A stretch of DNA of 64,000 nt from an uncultured Clostridia bacterium. GTDB lineage: Bacteria; Bacillota; Clostridia; Christensenellales; Pumilibacteraceae. The translations under genes were made by a program, and so were the position numbers. The stretch spans positions 1 to 64,000 of the forward strand of contig CAMWLQ010000004.1 in the NCBI GenBank assembly GCA_947175195.1, read 5' to 3'. Positions 10,913 through 51,417 of this stretch are shown one piece after another; position 1 is the first letter of the stretch; each line of letters opens with the position of its first letter. The notes below the pieces were generated by a model. That model did no database searches, was not told the DNA's origin, and saw only the letters and a program-made list of their open reading frames with translations.

Positions 10913-10919
10913 ATAGGTA

Positions 10920-11119
10920 CATCCTGCGGTGTACGAGATGACGCCTAATTTATAACCTCAACTATAAAAAGGGATGGCGGAGTATGCTTGTATTATGTCG
11001 GGCCTCAGTAATTTTACTTTATGTAAGCAGGGGAAGACAGACGACGGCATCAGCTAACCCACCTGCCATAAGGCGGGTTTGAATTCGGCTATATCTGCGG
11101 CACAAGCGGGATTTTTTTA
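10920..11119 (+). ncRNA. ssrS: Probable 6S RNA
   Basis: This is a 385-bp gap without ORFs that has its own strong promoter and ends in a GC stem with a seven-T run (11112-11118), giving a transcript of about 200 nt. The ends pair (ATCCTGC with GCGGGAT), and the interior has GACGCC/GGCGG-type arms around a weakly paired middle. Size, closing stem, internal open region and the C-TGCGG-containing 3' end resemble firmicute 6S RNAs, which sequester sigma-A RNA polymerase. I identify it by pattern, not by alignment. SRP RNA and tmRNA were considered, but their hallmarks are absent. Confidence 0.6.
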
Positions 11120-16316: not shown

Positions 16317-19300
16317 CTACAGCCGCACCGTGCCACGGAAAACCTCGCACGCCTCGCCCGTCAAGTACACCGCCTCGTCGGTGTAGCGAATGATAAGCTC
16401 GCCGCCGGGCAGGCGCACCGATATGTCGGTGTCCTTGTCGCACTTGCCGTTTAGCACCGCCGCAACAGCCGCCGCACATGCGCCGCTGCCGCACGCCATA
16501 GTTTCGCCCGTGCCGCGCTCGTATACGCGCAGCTTGAGGTGCGTCCTGTCTATAACCTGCATAAACCCAACGTTGACGCCCTCGGGGAACAGCGACGTGT
16601 TTTGACCTATCGCTATGCCAATGCCCTGCACGTCGAAGTTTTGCACGTCGGGCACTATTAATGTGCAGTGCGGATTGCCCATAGACGTACACGTAATATT
16701 GAACTTGCCGAGCGGCGTTTCTATCTCCCTGTCGATAATCTTATCGCCGGACAAACGCACGGGAACGGATTTTGGATCGAGCTTTACCGCGCCCATATCG
16801 ACCTTGACCGAATTGACCTTGCCGTCGCGCGCGAACAGCTTGAGCTTTTTTACACCCGACAGCGTGTCAACCGTAATGTCCAGCTTGTCGGTCTTGCCGT
16901 TGTCGTAAAGGTACTTGCCCACGCAGCGTATGCCGTTGCCGCACATTTTGCCCTCCGAGCCGTCGGAGTTGAACATGCGCATTTTGGCGTCGCACGTGTC
17001 GGACGGATAGATGAATATAACGCCGTCGCCGCCCACACTGAAATGCCTGTCCGAAAGATTTACCGCGACCGATTCCATATTGTTTATGGGCTTGGTCAGG
17101 CAGTCGACGTAAATATAGTCGTTGCCGCAGCCGTGCATCTTTACAAAGTTGAGCCGCTGGCGCTCGGTGCGCATATCGTTTATATCCACCAGCTCGGTGT
17201 TGTACTGGCTGTAACGGCTCTTTAACGCACGCGCCAAGGCGTTTGCCGTGTCGATAGCGGTAAGACACGGTATGCCGCGCGTGACCGCCCTGCAACGCAG
17301 GCGCACGTCGTCGTGCGTGGGAATCCTGCCGCGCGTGGAGGTGGAAACAAGGTAATCTATCTTGCCCGAATTAAGCAGCGACATTGTGTTTTCGCGCGAC
17401 GATTCGCTCAGCTTGTCCACTATCGTGACGGTCATACCCGAACGGCTTATCACCTCCGCAGTGCCCGCCGTGGCGTACAAATCAAAGCCCAGCTCGTAAT
17501 AGTTTTTGGCGACGCCCACGATTTCCGCCTTGTCGGAATCGCGCACGGTCATAAGTATGCCGCCGCGGCGTTTCATCTTGTAGTTTGCCGCAACAAGCCC
17601 CTTGTACAGCGCCTCGTCCAGCGTTTTGCCAATGCCGAGCACCTCGCCCGTAGATTTCATTTCGGGACCCAAATGCGTGTCGAGGTCGGTAAGCTTTTCA
17701 AACGAGAATATAGGCACCTTTACCGCAACGTACGGCGCGGACGGATAAAGCCCCGTGCCGTAGCCCAGCTTTTTGAGCTTTTTGCCCACCATACATTCGG
17801 TGGCGAGCTTTATCATAGGCACGCCAGTCACCTTGGATATGTACGGAATGGTACGCGACGAACGCGGATTGACCTCTATTACGTAAATCTTGCCGTCGCT
17901 TATTATGTACTGAATGTTGACAAGCCCCTTGGTGTTTAGCGCCGTTGCGAGCTTGCGCGTGTATTCGATTATTTCTTCCTTGTTCTTGTCGGAAATGTTT
18001 TGCGACGGGTACACAGCAATCGAATCGCCGCTGTGTATGCCCGCGCGCTCTATATGCTCCATTATTCCGGGGATGAGAATATCCTCGCCGTCGCAAATGG
18101 CGTCCACCTCGATTTCCGTACCCATAACGTATTTGTCGATAAGCACTACGTTGTCGGGATTGCCGTCGAGGATTATTTTCATGTATTCCTTTACGTCGTC
18201 GTCCGAAAAGGCAATAATCATGTTTTGCCCACCCAAAACGTACGACGGACGGAGTAGCACGGGATAGCCGAGCGCATTACCCGCCGCCAGCGCCTGTTCG
18301 GTAGTCTTGACGGTATGACCCTGCGGGCGCGCTATGCCGAGCTGTTCGAGCAATGCGTCAAACCGCTCTCTGTCCTCCGCCGCGTCAATCGCGTCGGCAG
18401 GCGTGCCTAAAATCCGCACACCCTTTTCGGATAAATGCTTGGTCAGCTTGATAGCCGTTTGTCCGCCGAACGCCACCACCACGCCGTAAGGGCGCTCGGT
18501 TGCGATAACGTTGTCCACGTCCTCGTCTGTGAGCGGCTCAAAGTACAGCCTGTCCGCAGTGTCGAAATCGGTGGAAACCGTTTCGGGATTGTTGTTGACT
18601 ATTGCTACGTCGTAGCCGAGCTCCTTAAGCTCCCACACGCAATGCACGGACGCATAATCGAACTCTATGCCCTGACCTATACGGATAGGTCCCGATCCGA
18701 AAACTATAACGCGCTTGGCATTGCTCTTGCGTTCCTCGATAAACTCCTTTGCCTCGTTTTCGTCGTCGTAGGTGGAATAGAAATACGGCGTTTCAGCCTT
18801 AAACTCCGCGGCACATGTATCTACCGTTTTGAACACCGCGCGACGGTGCATAGGCAATTCATTGCCCGTTATCTCTTTCAGCGCGCTGTCGGGATAGCCC
18901 ATACGCTTGCCCAGCATATATTCCTTTTTGGTTATTTGCCTGTTTGCTATACTGCGCTCAAAGTCGACAAGATTTTGAATCTTGCACAAAAACCACTTGT
19001 CGATTTTGGTTATATCGGAAATTTTGTCAATGCCTATACCGCGCTTGAGTGCCTCGTATATTATGAACAAACGGTAGTCGGTTGCGGGCATCAGTTTATC
19101 TAAAATTTGCTCGTCGGTCATTGCGGCATAGTGCGCGTTGCTGAGCGTGGTTTGCCCTATCGCGCCGCGTACAGCCTTTAAAAGCCCCGCCTCGAAGGAC
19201 GGCGCAATAGCCATAACCTCGCCCGTAGCCTTCATTTGCGTGCCTAACGTGCGCTTGGCGTACACAAACTTGTCGAACGGCCACTTGGGCAGCTTGACCA

Positions 19301-20360
19301 CGCAGTAGTCTATTGCAGGCTCGAAACATGCGCACGTCTTGCCCGTAACGGCGTTTTGTATTTCGTCAAGCGTATAGCCGAGCGCGATTAGCGTAGCCAC
19401 CTTTGCAATGGGGTATCCCGTCGCCTTAGATGCAAGCGCCGACGAACGCGACACTCTGGGGTTGACCTCTATAACGGCGTATTCGCCCGTCGTGGGATGT
19501 AGCGCGAATTGGCAGTTGCACCCGCCTTCTATTTGCAAGTGCGTAATAATGTCGAGCGCGGCTGTGCGCAGCATTTGATAGTCCTTGTCGGACAGCGTCA
19601 TTGTGGGCGCAACCACTATGCTGTCGCCCGTGTGTATGCCTACGGGGTCGAAGTTTTCCATAGAGCAAACGGTAATGACGTTGCCCACGCGGTCGCGCAT
19701 GACCTCGAACTCTATTTCCTTCCAGCCGTAAATGCTCTTTTCTATAAGCGTTTGATGTATGGGCGAGAGCTCCAGCCCGCCGCGCGCTATCTCTCTAAGC
19801 TCCTTTTCGTTTTCGGCAATGCCGCCGCCCGCGCCACCAAGCGTGAAAGCGGGACGGACAATAACGGGATAACCTATGCTGTTTGCAAACGCGACCGCCG
19901 CGTCCACGTCGGTAACAACGTCGGACGGAACGCACGGCTGATTTATTTCCAGCATCGACTGCTTGAACAGCTCTCTGTCCTCGGCGCGGTCGATAGTGTC
20001 AGGCTTAACGCCGAGTAGGCGCACGCCGTGCTCGCGCAAGAAACCCGATTTGGCAAGCTCCATGGACAGCGTAAGACCTGTTTGACCGCCTAGCCCCGGC
20101 AAGATACTGTCCGGCTTTTCCTTGAGAATAATGCGCTCCAAGGTGGGAATGGTGAGCGGCTCTATGTAAATGGAATCAGCCATTGCCTTGTCGGTCATTA
20201 TCGTCGCGGGGTTGGAATTGACAAGAACAACCTCTATCTTGCGGCTTTTAAGCGTGCGGCACGCCTGCGTACCAGCATAGTCGAACTCCGCTGCCTGTCC
20301 TATAGTAATAGGTCCCGATCCTATGACCAAAACCTTTTTAATGCTTTTATCTCTCGGCAT
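16317..20360 (-). CDS. carB-dapF: Carbamoyl-phosphate synthase large chain fused to diaminopimelate epimerase
   Basis: One uninterrupted frame encodes 1347 residues. Residues 1 to about 1060 are a complete CarB: two ATP-grasp halves (VLVIGSGPITIGQAAEFDY and VIVFGSGPIRIGQGIEFDY) and the C-terminal allosteric domain ending in ELVDIND. From about 1069 to the end is a complete DapF of about 279 residues with both catalytic cysteines (MCGNGIRC and ACGSGACA). Met1063 could be an internal start, but it lacks a good ribosome site. CarB makes carbamoyl phosphate with CarA; DapF turns LL-DAP to meso-DAP, matching the DapL downstream. The start overlaps carA by 14 bp. I do not know this fusion from other organisms. 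Confidence 0.93.
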   Translation of the reverse strand: MPRDKSIKKVLVIGSGPITIGQAAEFDYAGTQACRTLKSRKIEVVLVNSNPATIMTDKAMADSIYIEPLTIPTLERIILKEKPDSILPGLGGQTGLTLSMELAKSGFLREHGVRLLGVKPDTIDRAEDRELFKQSMLEINQPCVPSDVVTDVDAAVAFANSIGYPVIVRPAFTLGGAGGGIAENEKELREIARGGLELSPIHQTLIEKSIYGWKEIEFEVMRDRVGNVITVCSMENFDPVGIHTGDSIVVAPTMTLSDKDYQMLRTAALDIITHLQIEGGCNCQFALHPTTGEYAVIEVNPRVSRSSALASKATGYPIAKVATLIALGYTLDEIQNAVTGKTCACFEPAIDYCVVKLPKWPFDKFVYAKRTLGTQMKATGEVMAIAPSFEAGLLKAVRGAIGQTTLSNAHYAAMTDEQILDKLMPATDYRLFIIYEALKRGIGIDKISDITKIDKWFLCKIQNLVDFERSIANRQITKKEYMLGKRMGYPDSALKEITGNELPMHRRAVFKTVDTCAAEFKAETPYFYSTYDDENEAKEFIEERKSNAKRVIVFGSGPIRIGQGIEFDYASVHCVWELKELGYDVAIVNNNPETVSTDFDTADRLYFEPLTDEDVDNVIATERPYGVVVAFGGQTAIKLTKHLSEKGVRILGTPADAIDAAEDRERFDALLEQLGIARPQGHTVKTTEQALAAGNALGYPVLLRPSYVLGGQNMIIAFSDDDVKEYMKIILDGNPDNVVLIDKYVMGTEIEVDAICDGEDILIPGIMEHIERAGIHSGDSIAVYPSQNISDKNKEEIIEYTRKLATALNTKGLVNIQYIISDGKIYVIEVNPRSSRTIPYISKVTGVPMIKLATECMVGKKLKKLGYGTGLYPSAPYVAVKVPIFSFEKLTDLDTHLGPEMKSTGEVLGIGKTLDEALYKGLVAANYKMKRRGGILMTVRDSDKAEIVGVAKNYYELGFDLYATAGTAEVISRSGMTVTIVDKLSESSRENTMSLLNSGKIDYLVSTSTRGRIPTHDDVRLRCRAVTRGIPCLTAIDTANALARALKSRYSQYNTELVDINDMRTERQRLNFVKMHGCGNDYIYVDCLTKPINNMESVAVNLSDRHFSVGGDGVIFIYPSDTCDAKMRMFNSDGSEGKMCGNGIRCVGKYLYDNGKTDKLDITVDTLSGVKKLKLFARDGKVNSVKVDMGAVKLDPKSVPVRLSGDKIIDREIETPLGKFNITCTSMGNPHCTLIVPDVQNFDVQGIGIAIGQNTSLFPEGVNVGFMQVIDRTHLKLRVYERGTGETMACGSGACAAAVAAVLNGKCDKDTDISVRLPGGELIIRYTDEAVYLTGEACEVFRGTVRL

Positions 20361-21438
20361 GGTTTTCCTCCATAAGCTTTACAAACCGATCGAACAAAAA
20401 CTCGGTGTCCTTGGGACCGCCGCAAGCCTCGGGGTGGAACTGCACGGAAAACGCGGGAGCGCACTTGTAGTCTATGCCCTCCACCGTTTTGTCGTTGGCG
20501 TTTATAAACCGCACCTCGGCTATATCCCCGTTCACGCTGTCAGCCTTGACCGCGTAGCCGTGGTTTTGGCTGGTCACGTACGTTTTGCCGCTGACCAAAT
20601 CCTTTACGGGCTGATTGGCGCCGCGGTGACCGTATTTCAGCTTTGTGGTAGTAGCGCCGTAGCTGAGCGCAAGCAGCTGGTGTCCCAGGCATATCCCGAA
20701 CGTGGGAATCTTATATGCGTTGAGTTTTTTGAGTTCTTCGATTATAGCAATATTATCCGCAGGGTCGCCGCCGCCGTTAGACAGCATTATACCATCGGGC
20801 TTGTAGCCAAGCGCCTGCTCGGCTGTCGTATTGTACGGCACGCGCAAAACGCTGCAGCCGTACTTGACGAGCATGCGCTCTATGTTCTTTTTTGCGCCGA
20901 AATCATACAGCACCACGCGGTACTTGTGCGCGTCGTCTATAGGGTTGACCTCGGTTGCCGCCGCGCACGACGTATGTTCGACCGCGGACTTGACCTTGTA
21001 CTTTTTAAGCATTGCCAGCTTTTGCGGCAAGTCCTTTATGCTGTCGGTTATCATTGCGTTCATAACGCCCTGACTGCGTATCTTTCTTGTAAGCGCGCGC
21101 GTATCGACGCCCGCAATGCCCACTATATTGTTCTTTTTGAGGTATTCGTTAAGCTCGCTCTCCTTGCGGAAATTGCTGCCCACCTCGCACAGCTCGCGCA
21201 CGACGTAGCCTGTAAGGTACGGCTTGTCGCTTTCGGCGTCCGTTTCTATCGCGCCGTAGTTGCCTATCATCGGAAAGGTTTGCGTAATTATTTGACCGTA
21301 ATAGCTGGGATCGGTTATGGAAAGCAAGTAGCCGCACATTGCGGTGGTGAACACCGCCTCGCCTACAACGGTGCCGTCGGCGCCAATCGCCGTGCCTGTA
21401 TACACCGTGCCGTCTTTCAAAATCAAGTATCTATCCAT
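20347..21438 (-). CDS. carA: Carbamoyl-phosphate synthase small (glutaminase) chain
   Basis: This 363-residue protein is the normal length. The N-terminal CarA domain opens DRYLILKDGTVYTGTAIG, and the C-terminal class I glutaminase has the nucleophile in FGICLGHQLLALSYGA and QFHPEACGGP near the end. It supplies ammonia to CarB. The 3' end overlaps carB by 14 bp, so translation is probably coupled. An ANTAR regulator and glnA precede it on the same strand, tying carbamoyl phosphate synthesis to glutamine supply. Confidence 0.97.
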   Translation of the reverse strand: MDRYLILKDGTVYTGTAIGADGTVVGEAVFTTAMCGYLLSITDPSYYGQIITQTFPMIGNYGAIETDAESDKPYLTGYVVRELCEVGSNFRKESELNEYLKKNNIVGIAGVDTRALTRKIRSQGVMNAMITDSIKDLPQKLAMLKKYKVKSAVEHTSCAAATEVNPIDDAHKYRVVLYDFGAKKNIERMLVKYGCSVLRVPYNTTAEQALGYKPDGIMLSNGGGDPADNIAIIEELKKLNAYKIPTFGICLGHQLLALSYGATTTKLKYGHRGANQPVKDLVSGKTYVTSQNHGYAVKADSVNGDIAEVRFINANDKTVEGIDYKCAPAFSVQFHPEACGGPKDTEFLFDRFVKLMEENHAER

Positions 21439-21483
21439 TTTTACCTCTTATCGTTGAACAACCGCCATAGCGACGAAAATACG

Positions 21484-22050
21484 TCAGTTTGTTTCGTAAG
21501 TACTAAGTATTTCCATTGCTACCTTGCGGCGCGTTGCACGCATTTCCATTGCGCGTTTTTCTATATACTTGTGCGCCTGCTCCTCGGAAAGCCCGAGCGT
21601 GCGCATAAGCGCAATCTTTGCGCGGTTGACGTACTTTGCGTCCTCCAGCTTGGACGTGAGCTCTTCGTTTTTGGCTTTTAACATACGCACGCGCGCGTTG
21701 GAAACAAGAATCAACCGCACCGATTCCAAAAGCTCGGACTTGGTTATTGGCAGCGACATTGTTATTATGCCGCAGGTGTTAAGCTCCTCCTCGATTTGTT
21801 CGGTGCTTATGCTGTTGCCTATATATATTCCGCCGCAGTCATTGGCGTCGGCTATCGCGACGGCAAGCTCGTTGCCCTGCTCGTCGATAAGCCCGCTGTA
21901 AATGACAAAAAGATCGAAAGGACGGCAGAGTGACGCGCGCCGCGCTTCCGCGGCAGTCGAGCAAACCACGCAATTAATCTTTTCGTGGTGTAACACGTCC
22001 GTCAACGCGTGTTGGCGGGATGGTGTGCTTGCGACTATCAGTGCGTCCAA
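21484..22050 (-). CDS. ANTAR-domain RNA-binding antiterminator
   Basis: This 188-residue protein has a divergent receiver-like N-terminal domain (about 1-115, MDALIVASTPSRQHALTDVL) without an obvious phospho-acceptor pair. A coiled-coil follows, then a C-terminal ANTAR three-helix domain (about 125-185, AKYVNRAKIALMRTLGLSEE...AMEMRATRRKVAMEIL). ANTAR proteins bind paired RNA hairpins to prevent termination. It starts with TTG at 22050 behind a perfect AGGAGG. Genes for a glnA-type enzyme (upstream) and carA (downstream) flank it. The leader of this run contains a terminator (24976-25010), a plausible target; that link is inference. Confidence 0.88.
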   Translation of the reverse strand: MDALIVASTPSRQHALTDVLHHEKINCVVCSTAAEARRASLCRPFDLFVIYSGLIDEQGNELAVAIADANDCGGIYIGNSISTEQIEEELNTCGIITMSLPITKSELLESVRLILVSNARVRMLKAKNEELTSKLEDAKYVNRAKIALMRTLGLSEEQAHKYIEKRAMEMRATRRKVAMEILSTYETN

Positions 22051-22103: not shown

Positions 22104-23306
22104 TTATATATCCGCATGGAATTCAAACAGTTCCCAATCGGTCTTTAACGCCTGCTCGGCGACCGCACGGCGCTTGATAGAGCCCAAAACGTCGTCGAAC
22201 ACGCCGGGGATATACTTGCGCAGCCATTCGCTCTTTTCCGCAAAGTCCAACGACCTGTCTATGGAGCTGAACATGCAGTCGGTGTACTCGCGCTCCTTGC
22301 GCAAAGTGTACTTGTTTTCTATGCCCTCTCTACCCGCCGCGAATATAAGCGCAAGCACGGTAAAGATATTGCATGTGGAGTCGGGCGTGCGTAGCATGAT
22401 GTCATTGTTATCAAAAATACGCATTGCCGAGCCGCGGTCGGCGCTGTACGCGATTTGGAATCCCGAACGTAACCGCCGATAGCTGTTTTGCGTAGGGTTG
22501 GCAAAGCACGATATTTCGCGGTATCTTCTAAGCACGCCCTCCGCAAACGCCTTAGACGCGGCGTCCGAATTCTTGCCGTTGAGTGTTATTGTCAAATGCA
22601 GTCCGCTGCCCGGCTGGCTGCCGACAGGGCGCGGCATAAACGACGCATAAGTGCCGTTTATCGCGCACACGTTTTTGACCGCGGTCTTGAACATTATAAA
22701 GTTGCGTGCCGCCGACGTGGGATCGGCGCTTTCAAAGTCCACCTCGTTTTGTCCCCAACCGCGTTCGTGATGGGACGAAATAGGTTTCAGTCCCATGTCC
22801 TCCAAGCTGACAATAACGTCGCGCCTGAGATTTTCGCACTTGTCAAACGGTGAGCACGCGCAGTAATCGGCGTTGTCGAACGGGACGAGATTGTTGCCTA
22901 CGTCGTCCTTGAACACGTAAAACTCGCACTCCGTAGCCACCTTTGCCTGATAACCGAGCGCGGACAGCTTGTCCACCTCGTTTTGCAACAGCGCCATCGG
23001 ATCGCATACAAACGGCGTACCGTCGGGATTGGCTATGCGGCAAAACACGCTGACCACTCTACCCGCGTGCGGACGCCACGGCAGCACCGAAAGCAATGAG
23101 CCGACGGGGACTATCTTTAAGTCCTTGCCGCCGACGCCTGTGATTGCGCCGCTGTCTATTGCCACGCCGTTTTCAAACGCGTCCTCAAGCTGCGACGACA
23201 ATACCGAAATATTGCGCTGTCTGCCGAGCAAATCGCAAAACGTAAGCTTGACAAACTTAACCTCGTTTTCCATAACGTATTCGAATAAATCCGTTTTCGA
23301 ATTCAT
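22104..23306 (-). CDS. glnA: Glutamine synthetase, short divergent form
   Basis: I take the ATG at 23306 (MNSKTDLFEYV) behind GGGAGGGG, giving 400 residues, shorter than the usual 440-470 of GSI. Family motifs are recognisable: VKFVKLTFCDLLGRQRN, ECEFYVF, HHERGWGQNEVDFE, PGSGLHLTITL, NSYRRLRSGFQIAYSADRGSAMRI and LRTPDSTCN. In the GSGxHxH motif the second His is Thr here, and the regions around the usual adenylylation loop are absent. The enzyme would make glutamine from glutamate, ammonia and ATP, but a narrower or different gamma-glutamyl ligase role is possible. It lies between pgm and the ANTAR gene on one strand. Confidence 0.82.
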   Translation of the reverse strand: MNSKTDLFEYVMENEVKFVKLTFCDLLGRQRNISVLSSQLEDAFENGVAIDSGAITGVGGKDLKIVPVGSLLSVLPWRPHAGRVVSVFCRIANPDGTPFVCDPMALLQNEVDKLSALGYQAKVATECEFYVFKDDVGNNLVPFDNADYCACSPFDKCENLRRDVIVSLEDMGLKPISSHHERGWGQNEVDFESADPTSAARNFIMFKTAVKNVCAINGTYASFMPRPVGSQPGSGLHLTITLNGKNSDAASKAFAEGVLRRYREISCFANPTQNSYRRLRSGFQIAYSADRGSAMRIFDNNDIMLRTPDSTCNIFTVLALIFAAGREGIENKYTLRKEREYTDCMFSSIDRSLDFAEKSEWLRKYIPGVFDDVLGSIKRRAVAEQALKTDWELFEFHADI

Positions 23307-23326
23307 AACCCCTCCCTTTGTGGGCA

Positions 23327-24955
23327 TTACATAAACTTTTTGGCTTGGTTGAGTATCTTTTCGATACGCTGTTCCCCGCCCGTTGCGGCGGTAATATACA
23401 CCTTGATAAGCGGCTCTGTGCCCGACGGACGGATAATCAGCTTGCTCCCGTCCTCTGCCTTGAACGACAGTACGTTCGATTTGGGCAAATCATATTCCGT
23501 TTGCGACATATAGTCAATCGCCTTTACTACGGGCGAGCCGTCAATATCTTTGGGCGGATTGTTTCTTATTTCCCCAAGCACTTCGCTCATCTTTTGCGCG
23601 CCCGAAATACCTTCGTAGGTAAACGATACCGTGCGGTGGAAATACTTGCCGTACTGCGCAAAAATGCCGTCCAGCACGTCGCCCAACGTTTTGCCCTCGG
23701 CTTTGTAGTCCGCAGCCATTTCCGCGACGAGCATGCTCGCAAGCACGGCGTCCTTGTCGCGCACGTACGTGCCCGAAAGATAGCCGCAGCTTTCTTCGTA
23801 CCCGAACACAAACCTATCGCCCGAGCCCGACTGCTCGAGCTTTTTGATGACCTCGCCTATATACTTAAAGCCTGTAAGCACCTCGCGCACCTCGGCGCCG
23901 TAATGCTCGGCGACGCGCGCAGCAAGGTCGGTGGTAACTATTGTCTTGACAACCACGGGATTTTCGGGCAGCGCTTTTGCGTGCGAAAAAATATAATCTA
24001 TAAGCAGTACGCCCATCTCATTGCCCGAAATCAGCCTATACTCGCCGTCGCTTTGCCTTACCGCCGCGCCCAGTCTGTCCGCGTCGGGATCGGTGCCGAT
24101 AACAACGTCGGCGTTAGTCTTTTTAGCGAGCGCCACGGCAAACTGCAATGCCTCCGCCTTTTCGGGATTGGGATACGGCGTTGTGGGGAAATTGCCGTCG
24201 GGCTGCGCCTGCTCGGCAACGATTTGAACGTTTTTAAACCCGCGCTCACGGAACAACTGCGGCATAATGTATGCGCCCGTGCCGTTAAGCGGCGTATATA
24301 CTATTGAAACGTCGCGGCGTTCGCCCACCGACCGCGCGTACACGCTGTCCAAATACTCGCGCGTCACGTCGGCATACACGATATTGCCCGCTTTTAATGC
24401 GGTATCGAAATCAGCCGCTTTCACGTCGAAAATACTTACCTTTTGAATATACGAAAAAATGTCCGCCGCCGCGGCGTCGGTGACTTGGCAGCCGTCCGAG
24501 CCGTAAACCTTGTAGCCGTTGAACTTGGCGGGATTGTGGCTGGCGGTTATCATTATGCCCGCGTCACAGCCGTAATGCCTGACCATAAAGGAAAGGTACG
24601 GCGTGGGTTGTAGAGTTTCCGTTATGTACGCCTTGACGCCGTTTTGCGCAAGCACGGCAGCGGCATGGCGCGCAAACTCGGTTGAACAGTTGCGCGAATC
24701 GTAGCTTATAGCGACAGTAGCACCCTTTTTGCGCGACAAAAGATAGTCCGCAAGACCTTGCGTAACACTGCCGATGGTATAAATGTTAAGCCGATTTGTG
24801 CCTGCGCCCAAAATGCCGCGCAAGCCCGCCGTGCCGAACTCCAAATCCTTGTAAAAAGCCTCCTTTTTACTGTCCGCGTCCATAGCCTCAAGCTCGGCGC
24901 GGTACTCTTTGGCTCGGCTAAGCCACTCGCTATACTTTACTTCGATTACGTCCAT
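23327..24955 (-). CDS. pgcA: Phosphoglucomutase/phosphomannomutase (alpha-PGM family)
   Basis: At 542 residues it has the length of bacilliform PgcA-type enzymes. Visible motifs are the phosphoserine loop TASHNPAKFNGYKVY, the metal loop GTDPDADRLG, the sugar loop GYEESCGY and the phosphate-binding RPSGTEPLIKVY at the C-terminus. It interconverts glucose 1- and 6-phosphate. It is the first gene of the run, with GGAAGGAG before the ATG and a leader carrying a terminator-like hairpin. The glnA start lies 20 bp past its stop. Confidence 0.95.
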   Translation of the reverse strand: MDVIEVKYSEWLSRAKEYRAELEAMDADSKKEAFYKDLEFGTAGLRGILGAGTNRLNIYTIGSVTQGLADYLLSRKKGATVAISYDSRNCSTEFARHAAAVLAQNGVKAYITETLQPTPYLSFMVRHYGCDAGIMITASHNPAKFNGYKVYGSDGCQVTDAAAADIFSYIQKVSIFDVKAADFDTALKAGNIVYADVTREYLDSVYARSVGERRDVSIVYTPLNGTGAYIMPQLFRERGFKNVQIVAEQAQPDGNFPTTPYPNPEKAEALQFAVALAKKTNADVVIGTDPDADRLGAAVRQSDGEYRLISGNEMGVLLIDYIFSHAKALPENPVVVKTIVTTDLAARVAEHYGAEVREVLTGFKYIGEVIKKLEQSGSGDRFVFGYEESCGYLSGTYVRDKDAVLASMLVAEMAADYKAEGKTLGDVLDGIFAQYGKYFHRTVSFTYEGISGAQKMSEVLGEIRNNPPKDIDGSPVVKAIDYMSQTEYDLPKSNVLSFKAEDGSKLIIRPSGTEPLIKVYITAATGGEQRIEKILNQAKKFM

Positions 24956-24975
24956 AAAAGCTCCTTCCCGTTTTT

Positions 24976-25010
24976 AAAAAAGAGAAATGTATAACATATA
25001 TACACTTCTC
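24976..25010 (-). terminator. Attenuator-type hairpin in the pgm-glnA leader
   Basis: Read on the minus strand, a 12-bp stem (GAGAAGTGTATA / TATACATTTCTC, one G-U pair, loop TATGT) is followed at once by TTTTTT. It lies inside the roughly 88-nt leader, after the predicted start near 25043 and before the ribosome site. A terminator in that place suggests conditional read-through. The ANTAR antiterminator encoded in the same run is the natural suspect. Confidence 0.75.
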
Positions 25011-25049
25011 CTTGTGAATTTACTATCGCGGTAAGTTTCCATCAAAGTA

Positions 25050-25078
25050 ATTCTATCAAATTTTGCGCTATATGTCAA
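25050..25078 (-). promoter_or_regulatory. Promoter of the pgm-glnA-ANTAR run
   Basis: Minus-strand TTGACA, 17 bp, TAGAAT, predicting transcription from about 25043. Confidence 0.8.
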
Positions 25079-25462: not shown

Positions 25463-28400
25463 TTAGAAGTTGTCGGGATCAAATCCGTCGTTGCTCGGCG
25501 GGGTTTGCGGCCGCGCGTTGGGCGCCGATCCCGGAATGTTGTTTATCGTGGGTTGCTGCGGAGGCGGAGTGCCCGTTCCTGCGTTGAGCTGCAAGCTATT
25601 AGGCTGAGGTGCGGTCGAGCCGCCGCCGAGCATCATGCCCGGGTTGACCATGCCCTGCTGCGTAGGAGGCAAGTAGCCGAACGACTGATACTGAACACCG
25701 GACGAAAGACGCATCATCTCCTGTTCGAGCTCGGTTTCGGATTCGAGCAGCGCCTCGATCTCTCTGCGCATCTTGCGCTTTTTGTGAACTACCACGATTA
25801 TTACGATGAGCAGGATTATGAACAGCAGCGCGCCGCCTACGATAATCCAGAACCACATCCAGTTAGCCTCGATGAGCGACATGGTGTCCTCCCACCAAGA
25901 CAGCTCGGGTGCGTCCGTACATTCGACGGTAATGTCGTAGGTATAGCTCCTGCCCGAAAGGTCGACGAGGGTGACGGTTATTACCGATTCGCCGCGACGG
26001 TTGAACTTGAGCATAATGTACGATTGACCGCCTTCCTCGATAGGATCTACCGAGCGCACTGCCTCTACCTTGACGGACTGCGAGGACTTGACTGGAGTAA
26101 TAAACGTCATTACGTCCTCGGCGTCGTAATCCACAAACCAGTCGGTGGGTCTGATCTTGATAGTGCGCTTTTCCTTATCGTCGAGCTGACTTACGGTGTA
26201 GCGGTAGGACGAGGTGTCGTTTTTGAGCTGCGGCTTGTGGTTGGCAACAACGTTGATGGGCAGTATGCGCTCGCGCGTAAGCTCGCCCGTGCTGAACGTT
26301 ACCGTAACCTGCGTATTGACGCTTTCCGTCTTGGCGTAGATGCGCCAGTTGCCGGAAGGATCTTCGTCGGGAGATACGATGGTAAGGTAATTATTGCCGC
26401 CCACCTCTTTTATGTCGGAGATTTCGTAACCCTTGGCGTTGTCCTCGCCCAACAGGTCTTTGGCAAGAACGGTGCGCGTTACGCCGTAGACCATGTCCTT
26501 TTCTTCGAGGATTTCGTCTACGTCGTCGAGCGGGTTGGCAATCGTGATGAACAGCGTGAGCCTGAGCTCTTCACCGTCCAAAATGTCTGCCATCAAGCCG
26601 TCTTCATAGCCTTTATCCCAAATCCTGAGCGTGACCTTTTGTACGCCGTAAATGCCCCTAAGCGGTTCGATACGGAACTTTTGGTGCGCGGCGTCGCCCT
26701 CTACCCAGTTGACCATACACGCCGTGTCAACGGTAATTACCATTTCGGTTTCGCCCGTTTCCTCGTTGGTCGATTCACCCATCAAATTGGGTCCGTACAT
26801 ATCGGGACGGTTGGCCGCCGAATCGTCGTCGCTGGTGTAAACTATAATGTCGTCTACATAGGTGTATGTGGGAGAGCGGTTTGCATTGTTTGCCGACGCG
26901 GGATCGAAGTTGTCGCCGTTGGCGTCGGTGATAAAGTCGAGAATGTTGAATTCCACGTACGCGGCAGCCACCTGCTCGTCGGTAGCGGCGGCGCCTACGC
27001 CCATAACCGTAAGCTCGGTTTTTGCGCCCGGCTTGACGGTGGGAGCGATGTTACCAACGGTAAGGCGGATAGTGAGCACGCTTGTTGCCGACCCGATATA
27101 AGAGTCGCGGAACATAACGTTGCACACAGCCACTGCACCGCGCGAGGTGGATGTACAAGTGAACGTGATGTACGACAGCGTGGAAACCTTGTAGTGGTTG
27201 GTAGCCGACTGGTACGTCACTCTAAACGCACTCTCATCACCCGCACGTATAGTGGAAAGCGTGCTGCCGTCCCTGCTCATAAGGCTGTTTTCGCTGCCGG
27301 TATTGAGCATGACGTATGCGTCCATGTCTATATCCGCGTCGTCGATAATGTCGGATAAAAGCACGCTGCACGCTTTGTCCTTGGCAAGCGTAATGTTCAT
27401 CACGTAGCCGCTTTCGTCGTCGTGCGTCAAGGTGTAGCCGAGCCGCTCGGAATCGAGGCTCTTGAAGTCTTTGTTGCAATCGCCGCAATGAGCCGTGCGC
27501 TCGTTGGTCTGACGCACGTTATCGCTCTTGCCGCAATACGGGCATCTACTGACTATGCCGGTTTGCGCAATTTCGGGACGATCGTTGCAAACGTAGACCA
27601 TGATCTTGGTAACGGTAACTCTGTTCCTGTCGTTTTTGGTAACGCCTGCAACGTTGTTCACGGCGTCAACGGCATAGATGGAAACCTCTATTTGCGTGGG
27701 CTTATTTTCAAGTCCGTTTGCGGGAGGCTGACCTGTCGTAACGTTACGGTTAATCCTGATGGTAAGCTTTTGGTTGTCGCCCTCGCCGTTGCAGCCAATG
27801 CTGAGTACGGGATCGTTGGAGGTGTTGCCCGTTTCGTTAGGCACGGAGTACGAGTAGTCGATGTATTTGATTATTTCTTTGCCGCCGTCTTCCTTGGACA
27901 AATTGATCATATCGTAGTCGTAGTAAAGACCGTGATACATATTCTCCAAATTGTACAGATCCCACGTGAGCGAATCGCCCTTAGAGCCGGTAAAGCTGAG
28001 GAAATCGGAATCGCGCAGGTCTTGCGAGCCTTGTTCCATGGGATAGCCGGCATTAAGCGACGAGCTTGTAGTTGCCATAAGCTTGGAGTTGGCGACCGAC
28101 ACGTCTATTTGCGAGCCCTTGCCCGCCATAGTGCTGACGCCGTCGTCATAGCGCTTTTTGACCACCACGTACAGCGGGATGGACGAAATGCTTGTTCCCG
28201 AACGAACAGTTGCGGCAGTCGGCGTGAACAGCAAGGACTTGCCGTCGGCGGACGCAGTTACGTCAAAGTATTTTTGAACGTATCTCGCCTCTTCGTCGCT
28301 GTTATTAAAGGATTCGGACGAGCCGCTGCGGCTGTAAAGCAGGATGTTGCTGCCGTTTGCGTTGTACATAACGGTGTTCATCGCACCCGATTCACTCTGT

Positions 28401-31400
28401 CTGAGCAGTACGTAAACCTCTACGTTGTACGCAGCGGAAGGTGCGGTTACGTCGGTATCCTTAAACAGCTTAGCGCCGTTATTTTCGACTATGGCAATCT
28501 CTTGAGGCTCACCCTTGTTGACTTCCGCGTCGATATACTCCGCATAGCTCATTATGCTAACAGGCAACGAGCTGCTGGCAGCCACAACCGTGGTGACCTC
28601 GGCGGGTAAGATTTTTACCTTGATGTAAACAGTGTCGGACACGGCGCCGTGAGCATCCTTTACGCGGAAACTTACGGTTGCGCGCTGTTCGCCCTGCTTG
28701 TTGATAAAGTCGGTAGCGGTGATGGTGATTTGATTGTTCTTGTTAGCGTCTTGAGTAACTGCAGCAGTAACAACGGCGTTTTCGCCGGGGTTTTGTATGC
28801 TGAACTTGCTGCCGCCCATGTCGGAGTATACGTCAAGCGCCGCAGCGTCGCCGCTGTCTATGTCGGTCATCAATCCGCTGTTGCCGCCGAGATAAATCGA
28901 CTTGGATTCGCCGTACGAAAGCGCAATGGCATACGTGTTGTCGGTTTCGCGCGTGACGCCGGCAGGCAAGCCTGTGGTCTTTGCCGTAGGCGCGGACGAA
29001 ATAACGTTGACTCTAACAGCAACCTCGACCGTGGCTCCCTTGCCGTCCTGCAGCGTGACTCTGATTACGGTGCTTACAACACCCGAGGCGCTAACAGCCA
29101 AGCGCAAGTGACCTTGCTGACGACCGTTGCCGTAATCCTCGGTATTTACCGACAGCTCTCTGGTTACCGTAACGCGTCCGTTGACGTCGTTGGGAACGTC
29201 TACCTTGACAATGCGGAGCGTGGTGGGCGCGTCGTCCGAGCCGAGTACAAGGCTATTGCCGGTGTACGATTCGGTGCCGTATCTGGACGTGAAGAACATA
29301 AAGCTGTCGCTCATTTCCTTGGCGGTGAGCTCGGTAAGCGTCGTTTCGGAAGAGTACGGGAATTTGTATCTTGTTCCCACCTCGGTGTACGACGTAAAGC
29401 CGCTTTGCGCGTCTTTCGAGAACTGGGTGGAATCGGACGCGTACAAATAGAATGTTTCGCCCGTCTTCATGGAAACGTCTATCGCGTTTGTCGCGCCGAA
29501 CGTATCGGTATTTGCAGTAGGCGCGTCGTTGTTATATTCGCACGAGAACACAATACGGACAGCCGAGTTGTTGGAATCCATAAACGTGTAGCCGAGCTCT
29601 CGAGTATCCTTAAACGCGCACTTTGCTTTGAATATAAGCGTCGTATGAGGCAACGCAATGTAGCTGCCCGTGCCGCCTACGAAAATATCGAAAGGCAAAT
29701 CCGCGTTTGTGGAGGAGTACATAAGACGGGTAAGGTCTACGTAGCTGTCGGCAGCAGGCATGACCAAGTAGTCTCTAATGTACTTCTCTTCCGTGTCCAA
29801 ACTCGTCCAAGCATTGTCCAATACCGTAGCATAGCTGGTGCCGGCAAGCACAATGTCGTCGTCCTTCAACAGCGACGTCACGTCAACGTAGTACGTAGAG
29901 CTTGTGGACAAATTGACCGTGTATTTGGGCACATTCGTGTTCTTATACCCGTCGGGCAAGCTGGCGGAGCCGTTATAACGGAAAGTGCCAGTTACCGCGT
30001 CGGTATTGACCTTGGTTTCGTCGTTCTGAATATATACTCTTATAATTGCCGCATAGCAGTAGCCTTCGGTAAATGCGGAGCCCTTATATTCGTCGTAGAA
30101 CAACACGCGGAAAGGATAGTATACGCCGCCGTTGGCATCTCTTACCAAGTGATACTTATTGTAGTATGCGGTTTTTTCCGCATCGGACATGTTTGCGGTG
30201 ACTGCGGCAAAGTTGGGCGTGGTCTTTGCTTTGGGTATAAACTGCAAAGACTCGGACGAGCCCGATGCCGGCGATACGTCAAAGAACATGCTGTAATCGG
30301 GGTTGGGATTGTAGGTATACGGATTGACGTTTCCTTCACCTTCCTGATCGGTAACCTTATCATCCGTTGCGACGCCGTAGTAGTTCCTTATGGCGTCACC
30401 CTCGGTGCCCAAAAGATGATCGACTTCAGCCCTTGTAAGTCCGCCCTGCACAGTCGACGGCAGGTAGAACTTCATTGTATCTTCTTTGTCGGGGTCGTTG
30501 TAGTAAATTACGCCCTTATCGCCCGTTCCTGCATCCGCCAATGTGCCCGCCTCGTTATACTTATTAACAAGCGTCATTGTGGAAACATAGTTGTTGGTAT
30601 TGTCGGAGGCGTCGCCCGTGTTGCCGATTGTCATAACAACGCGTTGGCTGACGTAATTGTTCGAGCCGTCGTCGGCTTTATTCTCGTTAAAGTTATAGTA
30701 CTTAACAAGCGGTTCGTAATCGAACAGTTTGATTTCAACGTCGACCATTTCGACTGCGCTTTCGGTTTCGATGTCGATTGTTTTAAGCGCAATAGTGAGC
30801 TTTAACAAGCCGGGTGCGCGTTTGCCGCCCGCTTTTTTGTTAATTTCAAAACCGTATTTATCCTCACGGTAATTTATATCTTCGAAAGGCGCAGCTCCGC
30901 CGTCGGCGTTGGTAAGCTTAAACCGTTGATTGTTTACGTACTTGGACGCGAAATTGACGGAAGGACCGGCAACGTATTTGACCGTAATGTACGGGTTGTC
31001 TGTTACGGGATAGGTGTTGACGCCGTCAGACAACGTCATATTCTTGTAGATAAGCGCCAAATTAGCGTTGCTGTTGCCCCATGAGGCGTAATCCTTATCC
31101 AAAAGCTCATTGCCGCCCGAAAGCGTGTTGCCCGCACCCGCGTTTGCAAACGTTACGTGCGTGCCATTCTCCGTATTGCTGCCTACGCCCTTAGGTAACG
31201 CAATAAAGCTCATAGGAACTCTGACCGCGTCATTAGTAGACGAATACTGAATCTCTATGGGTGCATAGCTGAACTTGTTGGTCGATTGCTGATAGCGCTT
31301 GGAGGTGAGATAAGTGCTTGTTACACCGTTTACCACCTGCTCGTAAGTGCGCTCGAAATACCTGTATTTGAACTCGTCTTTGAACTTGACGTGACCCAAA

Positions 31401-34400
31401 ATTTCTTGTCTGGTTTGGGCGCCTGAGATAGTCAAAGAGCTCGCGGCATTATACTGTGCGATTGCAGTTGTTTCGCTTTCGTCAAAGTCAGCCGAAGTTA
31501 CAACGCTTTGGTCGACCAAATATTGCGCGGGCTTGGTGCCGTCCGATTCCTTGACAAGAATCTTGGATTCGGCGTTGCCGTCGGTACGGTAATACGTGTG
31601 CATTGCAAGTATACCGGGTTGTCTGTAGTTGTAATAGAAATTGAGCAGCTTGCGATCGGAGGTATGCGCAACGGTGCTGAGCTGAGCTTTGTCGGGCGCA
31701 GTGTACAGCAGCTTGCCGTGGTGACTGTCCTTGACCGATAAGGCGAACTGAATTTCACGCCTTGTGCCTTGCTCATGAGTGTCGGTTATCTCTATCGCCC
31801 AGTATTCGCAATCGCGTATATCGGCGGTTGTCGCATACTCTTTGAATTCGTTGCCGTCCTTGTAGAAGAATCGAATGGTTACGTTTACGTAAGCGTCGTC
31901 GCCTGCCGAATTGACGTACATGGGCGTGTACAGCACAGCCGCATTCTTGTATGCCTCTTGCGTAAAGTCGTCCGCCGTAATATCCTTGTAGCTTGCGACA
32001 CTTCCGTCGCCGTTGAATACCCTATTCTCGTACTTGGATACCAAGTCGGAACGACCGGAAAACTCCGAGGGATTGAGTATAACGCGCTGTTTGGCGTCGT
32101 AATCGTCAAACAAATATACTTTGTTGTTTTCGGGAATGGATATAGGCGAATTGGTGTTGGATATTAACGATCCCTCGTACAGCTCCTTGCTGTTGAACAA
32201 GTACCGCGGTTGCAGTATTTCGGAGCTGACCTCGTAGCCTATAAGCCATTGATATTTTTCCTGCGTTTGCGCAGTCGCCTCCGTTTTAAGCAGGCTGTCG
32301 CCTACAAAAATGGGTGCGGTGTTGACTACGTTGATAAGCAAGTGAAGGGTAGCCTCTTGCGGCTGAGCTCTATAGCCGTCGCGCATGAGGAACTCTACGT
32401 AAATGGGCAAGTTGAACAGCTCGGTGGACGACAAGCCCGTCAAGCGAATGACGTCCGCGCCTGCCTTGGTGCCGCTGCCCTTGGTTATTACCGCCGATAC
32501 GTATTCGGACAAATTGACGCTCGCGTTGGAATTATCCGCGTCACAGCCATGATACGAACCGTTCTCGTAGTACAAATGTGTGTAATAGTTATTGCCGTCC
32601 TTGGCGACAATGCGCACGCTCTCCGAATCGAACGTAGGTATATCGCCGTCCTTATCGCTGGAAATCTCCTCGGTAGTAAACTCGCGCACATTAGGCGTAA
32701 TCGACGTAGAGGACGCGTCGGGATATGCCGAAAGGTTGTAATAGTCGTTTAAGTCGGGATTGAGCGTAGGTGCGGCGTTGAGTACCGTTACGGTAAACAT
32801 GCAGTTGATCGTTTCCGTACCGTCGGTTATGGTAAAGTGCAGCTGCACTATTGCCGAGGTAGTACGCGATACGCCCGTGATTTTTATAGCGGGAATGGCG
32901 TAGGATGTAGTGGTGCCGTTGGCATTTTTTACAATGCTGTAATCACTTACGCTGACGTTGATATAGTTGCTGTACTGCGCATCGTACGCCGTTATTGCCG
33001 CACGGTTGGCAAAGTCGAGCTTTTGCGCCGACACAGCCGACTTGGTCTTTTGCGACGCGGTAGTCGCAGGCGCGGAAGTGTGCGCCACGCTGTAGGTCTT
33101 TAGTATGTGAGTGGATGCAAGAGTGCCGAAACCTGCGTCCATCGGGTTGGAGTTGAACGTTCCGCTCGCGTTGATTTTGTCGGAGCTGGGATCGATGTCA
33201 AAGTCGTACGCAAAGTCGTACGGGGTGATTTGCACCTCGTCCATAACCTCGATAGTGTAATTGACAACCTTGCCGCCGAGGTTGGCGTTTTGGGCATATT
33301 CGCCGTACGGTGTTTTTCCCAACTCCTTGTTGGCGGTAAGCGCATTAATCTTGTGCGTACCGTCGTCGGGATCGAGTCGAGCCGATACGGCACGGTTTTC
33401 CACCTTTACGCAAATGCTGATAGTGGCTGCCTTATCGTGCGTATCTTTTACGTTTACTCTAAACTGATAGTACTCCCCGTTTGTGGAACGCTTGGCGGTA
33501 ACAGCCAAACCGTTAAACGAGCAAAGAGTATTGCTTTCTTTTGTAATACCGTATGTGGACAAAGCGCTGTCCGGTATCATCTTGAATACCGACCGAGCCG
33601 CGTACAGCTTGACGGTGCGAACGCTGAAGAACGTGCCCGTTTCGGTGTCGCCGTTGTCCAATATCGCGCTATCGCCGCCGTTGATGAACACAAAGTCGTT
33701 TAAGCCTCTCGCGCGCTCGAATGTTTCACCCGTCGCGGCGGCATACATAAATCCGTCCCTATCCAAAGCAAACGGTATCGCGTGACCCACGTTGTCCAAA
33801 TCTTGGGTCGTTTTGCCTATGCCCTGCAGCGTACCCGCAGTATCGACATAGCTTATGGGCGTAAAATACGCGGTTTGACCGTCGCCGCCGTTGGTTGCGG
33901 AAACGTTGGTAAATCCGAGCGAAACATTGGCGAACGTCGCGGGCTCGGTGGGCGTTTGCGACGTGACCTCTATCGCAATGGGGAACCAAATACCGGTATC
34001 AGCCGTGTCCGAAGGATCGACCACGCGGACGAGTATGTAGAAATGTCCTTTTCTCGTAACCCTGTTGCCGCTGGAATCCCTATACTGGTTTTGGGTAGCC
34101 GAACGACCGGTAAATTCTATCGTTTGGCTGTTTACGTAACGATACGTAACGTTTGCCGTTGACGCGGCATTGCTGCCGTTTGCCGCTATGGACGCCGTGT
34201 TAAAGTACGTAGGCGTAGTGCCCTCGCCCGTGGTTGCGCTATTGCTTGCGACCGAGGTCTTGCCTGCGTAGTTACTGCCCACGTTGGTTGCAAGCGGTAC
34301 GGCTATATTGGACGTATCGACCTGAATATATTCGTTGGTAGGAACTTTGAGGTCGTTGGTGCCCTGCGCAAAGGTCGCCCTCAAACCATTGGCACTGCCC

Positions 34401-51332: not shown

Positions 51333-51417
51333 GCGGGGGTGGCGAAATTGGCAGACGCGCAGGTCTCAGAAGCCTGTGGGTAACTCCGTACGAGTTCAAG
51401 TCTCGTCCTCCGCACCA
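51333..51417 (+). tRNA. tRNA-Leu (CAG)
   Basis: The 85-nt gene has acceptor GCGGGGG paired with CCTCCGC (one G-U), a D-arm with TGGC, an anticodon stem CAGGT/GCCTG around loop CTCAGAA (anticodon CAG at 51367-51369), a long variable arm and a T-arm with GTTCAAG. The CCA end is encoded. The extra arm and anticodon make it a leucine tRNA reading CUG. A terminator follows. Confidence 0.97.

Follow-up and report, generated by a model that had tools for sequence, protein, structure and literature searches.

The described ANTAR target consists of two hexaloop hairpins with A at loop position 1 (A1) and G at loop position 4 (G4), the second of which overlaps a terminator (PMC3369931). One hexaloop suffices for binding and is, in the EutV structure paper, the smallest ANTAR target, and the same paper reports that both hairpins are needed for preventing termination (PMC8934654). 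SELEX with NasR revealed a preference for a closing C:G pair (PMC7496416), and predicted ANTAR RNAs precede genes for glutamate and glutamine synthesis, e.g., in Desulfotomaculum (PMC3369931). Here we analyzed a 64,000-nucleotide stretch of DNA (the window) from a 1.78 Mb genome of Anaerocaecibacter (Pumilibacteraceae), a genus that includes the named Anaerocaecibacter muris (strain CLA-AA-M11). Like the eutP/EutV, nasF/NasR, and amiE/AmiR dual-hexaloop attenuators (PMC3369931, PMC8934654, PMC7496416), a locus in this window combines an ANTAR protein, a leader terminator, and nitrogen genes. The kinds of genes match those found with the ANTAR RNAs predicted at glutamate and glutamine genes, as does the notion of a nitrogen regulon; unlike those RNAs, which have dual hairpins (PMC3369931), the sites found here are single hairpins.

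The pgm operon and its leader

The locus is a run of five genes on the minus strand, in the order pgm, glnA, ANTAR, carA, and carB-dapF fusion, headed by a promoter and a leader with the following features:

25050..25078, minus strand: promoter, with -35 TTGACA at 25078-25073, a 17-nt spacer, -10 TAGAAT at 25055-25050, and an extended TG
24956..25043, minus strand: leader RNA, 88 nt up to the pgm ATG at 24955, start predicted at about 25043
25040..25042, minus strand: AUG where the transcript is predicted to begin, conserved in 20/20 genus leaders, downstream frame not kept
25008..25013, minus strand: AAGGAG at the base of the terminator 5' arm, in the same register as the ANTAR hexaloops (A1, G4) of relatives, here within the octaloop CAC[AAGGAGAA]GUG only
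24982..25010, minus strand: terminator stem-loop GAGAAGUGUA...UACAUUUCUC, frozen in sequence, keeping the non-Watson-Crick 25005 G opposite 24987 U
24976..24981, minus strand: terminator U-run (U6), from sequence reading
24961..24966, minus strand: pgm ribosome binding site AAGGAG, from direct reading
23327..24955, minus strand: pgm, phosphoglucomutase/phosphomannomutase, 542 aa (Pfam PGM_PMM I-IV)
22104..23327, minus strand: glnA-type glutamine synthetase, 407 aa (Pfam Gln-synt_C and Gln-synt_N); the true start may be an ATG near 23306
21484..22050, minus strand: ANTAR protein, 188 aa, with a receiver-like N-terminal region (Pfam ANTAR, 51.8 bits, cut-off 27.3)
20347..21438, minus strand: carA, from domain search
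16317..20360, minus strand: carB-dapF fusion, 1347 aa, from domain search and family comparison

The first-pass annotation had placed an ANTAR gene third in this run, after glnA, and the Pfam match bears this out; it is the only ANTAR gene in the genome. Relatives of the protein occur in 49 of the 74 genomes of the family, including all 20 of the genus, and within the genus the order pgm-glnA-ANTAR is maintained wherever the contig is long enough. NitR of Clostridium saccharobutylicum is encoded by an ANTAR-type gene adjoining glnA; relative to that arrangement, the operon here also has pgm, carA, and carB-dapF, and in most relatives it includes purF. This purF lies between ANTAR and carA and is absent there (21438-21484 in the window) from the window and its nearest relatives, as judged from one locus that was read and from gap length in the remaining loci. 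In nearly all family genomes for which the retrieved sequence extends to dapF, the CarB and DapF matches abut in one frame; dapF is separate in genome G062, and in certain further families of the order it directly follows ANTAR. The gene immediately preceding the operon, on the same strand, encodes a surface-type protein (3653 aa, 25463-36424, minus strand) and has its own terminator-like repeat, and a similar protein end precedes the operon in G009 and in the contig of locus L118. The window also contains a 6S RNA (10918-11116, plus strand; Rfam RF00013, 54.4 bits) and a tRNA (51333-51414).

The same annotation had described an 88-nt leader with a terminator between promoter and ribosome binding site. 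This description holds: the predicted promoter, TTGACA-17-TAGAAT, scores 11/12 in a promoter scan, the leader folds at -21.5 kcal/mol compared with -12.3 +/- 2.8 for shuffled sequences (z -3.25; 2 of 200 shuffles were equally good), and the arrangement recurs in 19 further leaders (see below). The hairpin, AAGGAGAAGUGUAUAUAUGUUAUACAUUUCUCUUUUUU at 25013..24976 on the minus strand, has 15 bp in the minimum free energy structure. By direct reading, a T-run follows it on the minus strand only, and since the plus strand has none behind the hairpin, we consider it a one-way terminator. A simple terminator scan of the window did not list this hairpin, because its stem is rich in A+U. The leader of the putative target gene thus contains, by sequence, a predicted intrinsic terminator, as an ANTAR-controlled attenuator would.

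Conservation of the leader in Anaerocaecibacter

Promoter, hairpin, and U-run were found together in 19 further leaders, coming from 18 Anaerocaecibacter genomes and one stray contig, and TTGACA with a TAxAAT-like box is present in every leader of the genus (in L044, L118, and L108 by direct reading). In all 20 leaders, the window's included, the stem GAGAAGUGUA...UACAUUUCUC, or a close variant, encloses a free loop and stands before pgm wherever the locus was read, and the 5' arm GAGAAGUG is identical throughout. The 14 pairs show no compensatory change among 17 aligned leaders, so the stem is conserved as sequence itself. Its sixth position is never a Watson-Crick pair in the leaders read, being G/U except for G/G in G018 and apparently in G009, a leader with a loop insertion of more than 100 nt. 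We rejected a DNA operator as an explanation, given that the spacing between the stem arms varies by several bases; the frozen arm, the free loop, and this variable spacing argue that the constraint acts on RNA sequence rather than on a DNA operator with fixed phasing.

No convincing further copy of the leader was found in the window's genome or outside the genus. A covariance model built on it gave one convincing match per matching genome of the genus, the one extra match being a pgm-linked contig in G004, and outside the genus weak matches without a convincing copy, among them one in G070 that was rejected for its unrelated context. The exact pattern matched once in the window's own genome. 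Searched against 84,980 genomes, it hit 14 records that belong to the genus or resemble it and three unrelated ones, and among the 396 genomes of the order it hit none beyond the genus. The three contigs matched outside the genus were rejected as leader copies, as the matches are terminator-like repeats that lie within unrelated genes or behind them. At the level of sequence, conservation across the genus therefore supports attenuation ahead of the ANTAR-encoding operon.

Probable ANTAR sites at glutamine synthetase genes and a possible one in the pgm leader

Hexaloop attenuators were found elsewhere in the family, in the leaders of GSIII genes, and the window's genome has one too:

L162 3100-3240 (contig C1 of the window's genome, near 197113), minus strand: GSIII leader; one ANTAR-type hexaloop attenuator close to the promoter, on a 2-bp stem

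In this leader the hairpin AC[AAAGAC]GU lies directly at the predicted transcript start. As in the eutP, nasF, and amiE systems, the family's GSIII hexaloop has A1, G4, and a closing C:G pair and overlaps the 5' arm of the terminator, so that most of these leaders have a recognizable counterpart of the P2 hairpin of those systems. Unlike in those systems, there is only one hairpin, with its loop 5-18 nt past the predicted start: a P1 hairpin is absent from 25 of 25 tabulated leaders, which have no room for a second hairpin. In 30 distinct sites, picked by eye from leaders with predicted starts, the closing C:G pair and G4 were found in 30/30 and A1 in 28/30, with G in place of A1 in two members of the window's genus, G002 and G010. 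At the second pair, 24 sites have G-C and 6 have A-U, never a mismatch; regularity is lower in the outer pairs, and the covariation score of the whole stem was reached by 11 of 500 shuffles, a moderate control. The more altered loops of G004, G006, and G008 were omitted from the alignment. Several members of the window's genus, the window's genome included, have a stem of just 2 bp, as does G068; of the several GSIII copies in G067, one was examined.

The occurrence of this attenuator follows that of the ANTAR gene. Outside the genus, a GSIII attenuator was found in 20 of 21 genomes with ANTAR and in 0 of 10 without (Fisher 2.5e-7, uncorrected for relatedness; G012 and G019 unresolved), and the contrast is seen also within genera, in g7 (7 with, 2 without) and g12 (1 and 1). 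Moreover, five glnA-ANTAR operons from other genera and families of the order (G062, G055, G105, G110, and G120) have a promoter followed by a single AAAGGC hexaloop that overlaps a terminator; in a sample of 20 glnA-ANTAR loci of the order, most others lacked a hexaloop attenuator immediately before glnA. This match between ANTAR and GSIII attenuators, together with the AAAGGC sites, supports the view that the family's ANTAR proteins act on leader attenuators, and single-hexaloop ANTAR attenuation in Pumilibacteraceae is well supported by these comparisons. Other hairpins were noted near glnA. The glnA leaders of genus g8 (L053-L058) share GCGUCYGUC...GACGGACGC followed by RYRUUUUAUG, with no Rfam match, and in genus g7 (L069-L071) a conserved terminator-like hairpin, AAAAGUCACC..GGUGAUUUUUU, lies between pgm and glnA.

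The pgm leader of the window, unlike the eutP, nasF, and amiE systems, lacks the P2 stem as well. No hexaloop match was found in it, in agreement with the earlier failure to find the usual twin hairpins, and no pairs close the AAGGAG at the base of the terminator 5' arm as a six-base loop. Dual hexaloop matches occurred in 1 of 17 genus pgm leaders, compared with 0.2 in shuffles, and an A..G.. hexaloop closed by 3 bp in 6 of 17, about chance level (shuffles 3.5 +/- 1.5). The bases in register with the relatives' hexaloops read AANGAG in many genus members, with G4 in all, and only G005 has a hexaloop stem in this register; the window's closest relatives form a 3-bp stem with an 8-nt loop, CAC[AANGAGAA]GUG. 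Terminators often have A-rich bases facing their U-run, so AANGAG by itself is a weak indication of an ANTAR site. In the window's own genome, a looser hexaloop-plus-terminator pattern did not outperform its control.

The protein was compared with EutV by hand mapping (EutV numbering). Among the contact residues, K143, K149, E160, M172, and R175 are kept, K147 is R, Y164 is H, and R142, R168, N173, and R177 differ. Relatives that have canonical hexaloops share the H and E positions, and a genus-specific change of contact residues was rejected, the key residues being the same in other genera. The contact residues thus do not decide the question of the pgm leader, since most of them are shared with relatives whose hexaloops are canonical. 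In the alignment, the receiver-like domain has Y, N, C, or another residue where, by analogy, the phospho-acceptor Asp is expected. As this Asp is apparently missing, phosphorylation is unlikely to be the signal; from the constant glnA-ANTAR neighbourhood one may guess at a contact with glutamine synthetase.

A model for the pgm leader and its alternatives

The pgm leader may be a transcription attenuator located just downstream of the promoter of the pgm-glnA-ANTAR-carA-carB/dapF operon. By default, RNA polymerase would halt at the hairpin and U-run; upon a demand for nitrogen, presumably linked to glutamine, a factor binding the 5' arm would hold the hairpin open. The most likely candidate is the operon's own ANTAR protein, without a second copy in the genome. 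In this family the protein very likely works through leaders with a single hexaloop near the promoter, as the GSIII comparison supports, and at pgm it would recognize a diverged site around CACAAGGAGAAGUG. We give this reading of the leader about even weight. Direct autoregulation of the operon by its ANTAR protein is likewise plausible, at about the same level, because of the position, the architecture, and the frozen 5' arm. Of the autoregulated antitermination put forward in the first-pass annotation, the conserved attenuator and the match between the family's ANTAR and GSIII attenuators speak in its favor, and the lack of a conserved ANTAR hexaloop hairpin in the pgm leader speaks against it. 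Of its further proposal, a coupling of carbon storage with glutamine and carbamoyl phosphate genes, the carbon-storage part amounts to operon membership only.

The lack of such a hairpin in the pgm leader would also fit an ANTAR protein that antiterminates GSIII, and perhaps other genes, through the single hexaloop and not its own operon, with the pgm attenuator being constitutive or regulated otherwise: the closing C:G pair and G4 are kept at GSIII and the pair-and-loop combination is not kept in the pgm leader. We regard this as possible yet rather unlikely, as a plain terminator needs no freezing of the kind seen in the pgm stem of nearly all members, and the predicted terminators in the DNA just upstream of the leader do vary between members where the scan found any. 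A further alternative is a switch made of RNA only, either a riboswitch or an antiterminator that the 5' leader would form with the 5' arm, or else some new RNA-binding protein; the 5' end of the G009 leader can pair with the 5' arm (-13.2 kcal/mol). Over 20 leaders, however, the pairing of leader start and arm sums to -68, compared with -72.7 +/- 8.2 for shuffles, and an antiterminator of this type was rejected as no stronger than chance. RNAalifold found no conserved structure upstream of the terminator in genus pgm leaders. Only about 30 poorly conserved nucleotides precede the stem, and the leader matches no known riboswitch family, with no Rfam match close to cut-off, which makes this explanation improbable.

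Translation could also set termination, through the presence near the hairpin of ribosomes that start at the 5' AUG of a leaderless short frame. All 20 leaders have an AUG at predicted +1/+2, and two bases further on an A is conserved as well, amid variable flanks. The frame behind it is not kept, however: once the ATGA overlap is removed, in-frame stops number 8 in frame 0 and 8 in frame 1 (21 in frame 2), the peptides range from 3 to 54 codons, the distance from AUG to stem falls in all three frames, and Gln codons are few or none. A leader peptide from this AUG, for which no conserved frame with codons of the sensed amino acid was found, was consequently rejected, and we consider the explanation very improbable. 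Another candidate peptide, MLYISLF, which has its own ribosome binding site inside the window's hairpin, was rejected because its start codon is not kept in relatives.

Returning to control by the operon's own ANTAR protein, we tentatively propose, at somewhat less than even confidence, that in Pumilibacteraceae and relatives ANTAR proteins would control glutamine synthetase genes by a single hexaloop near the transcript start, without the recruiting P1 hairpin regarded as necessary for antitermination, and the Anaerocaecibacter operon by a diverged, stem-less site. The family offers natural leaders with one hairpin at the transcript start that track the ANTAR gene, which makes the two-hairpin requirement directly testable, and in the window the leader is a conserved point at which glutamine synthetase, carbamoyl phosphate synthesis, and the ANTAR gene itself would be controlled.
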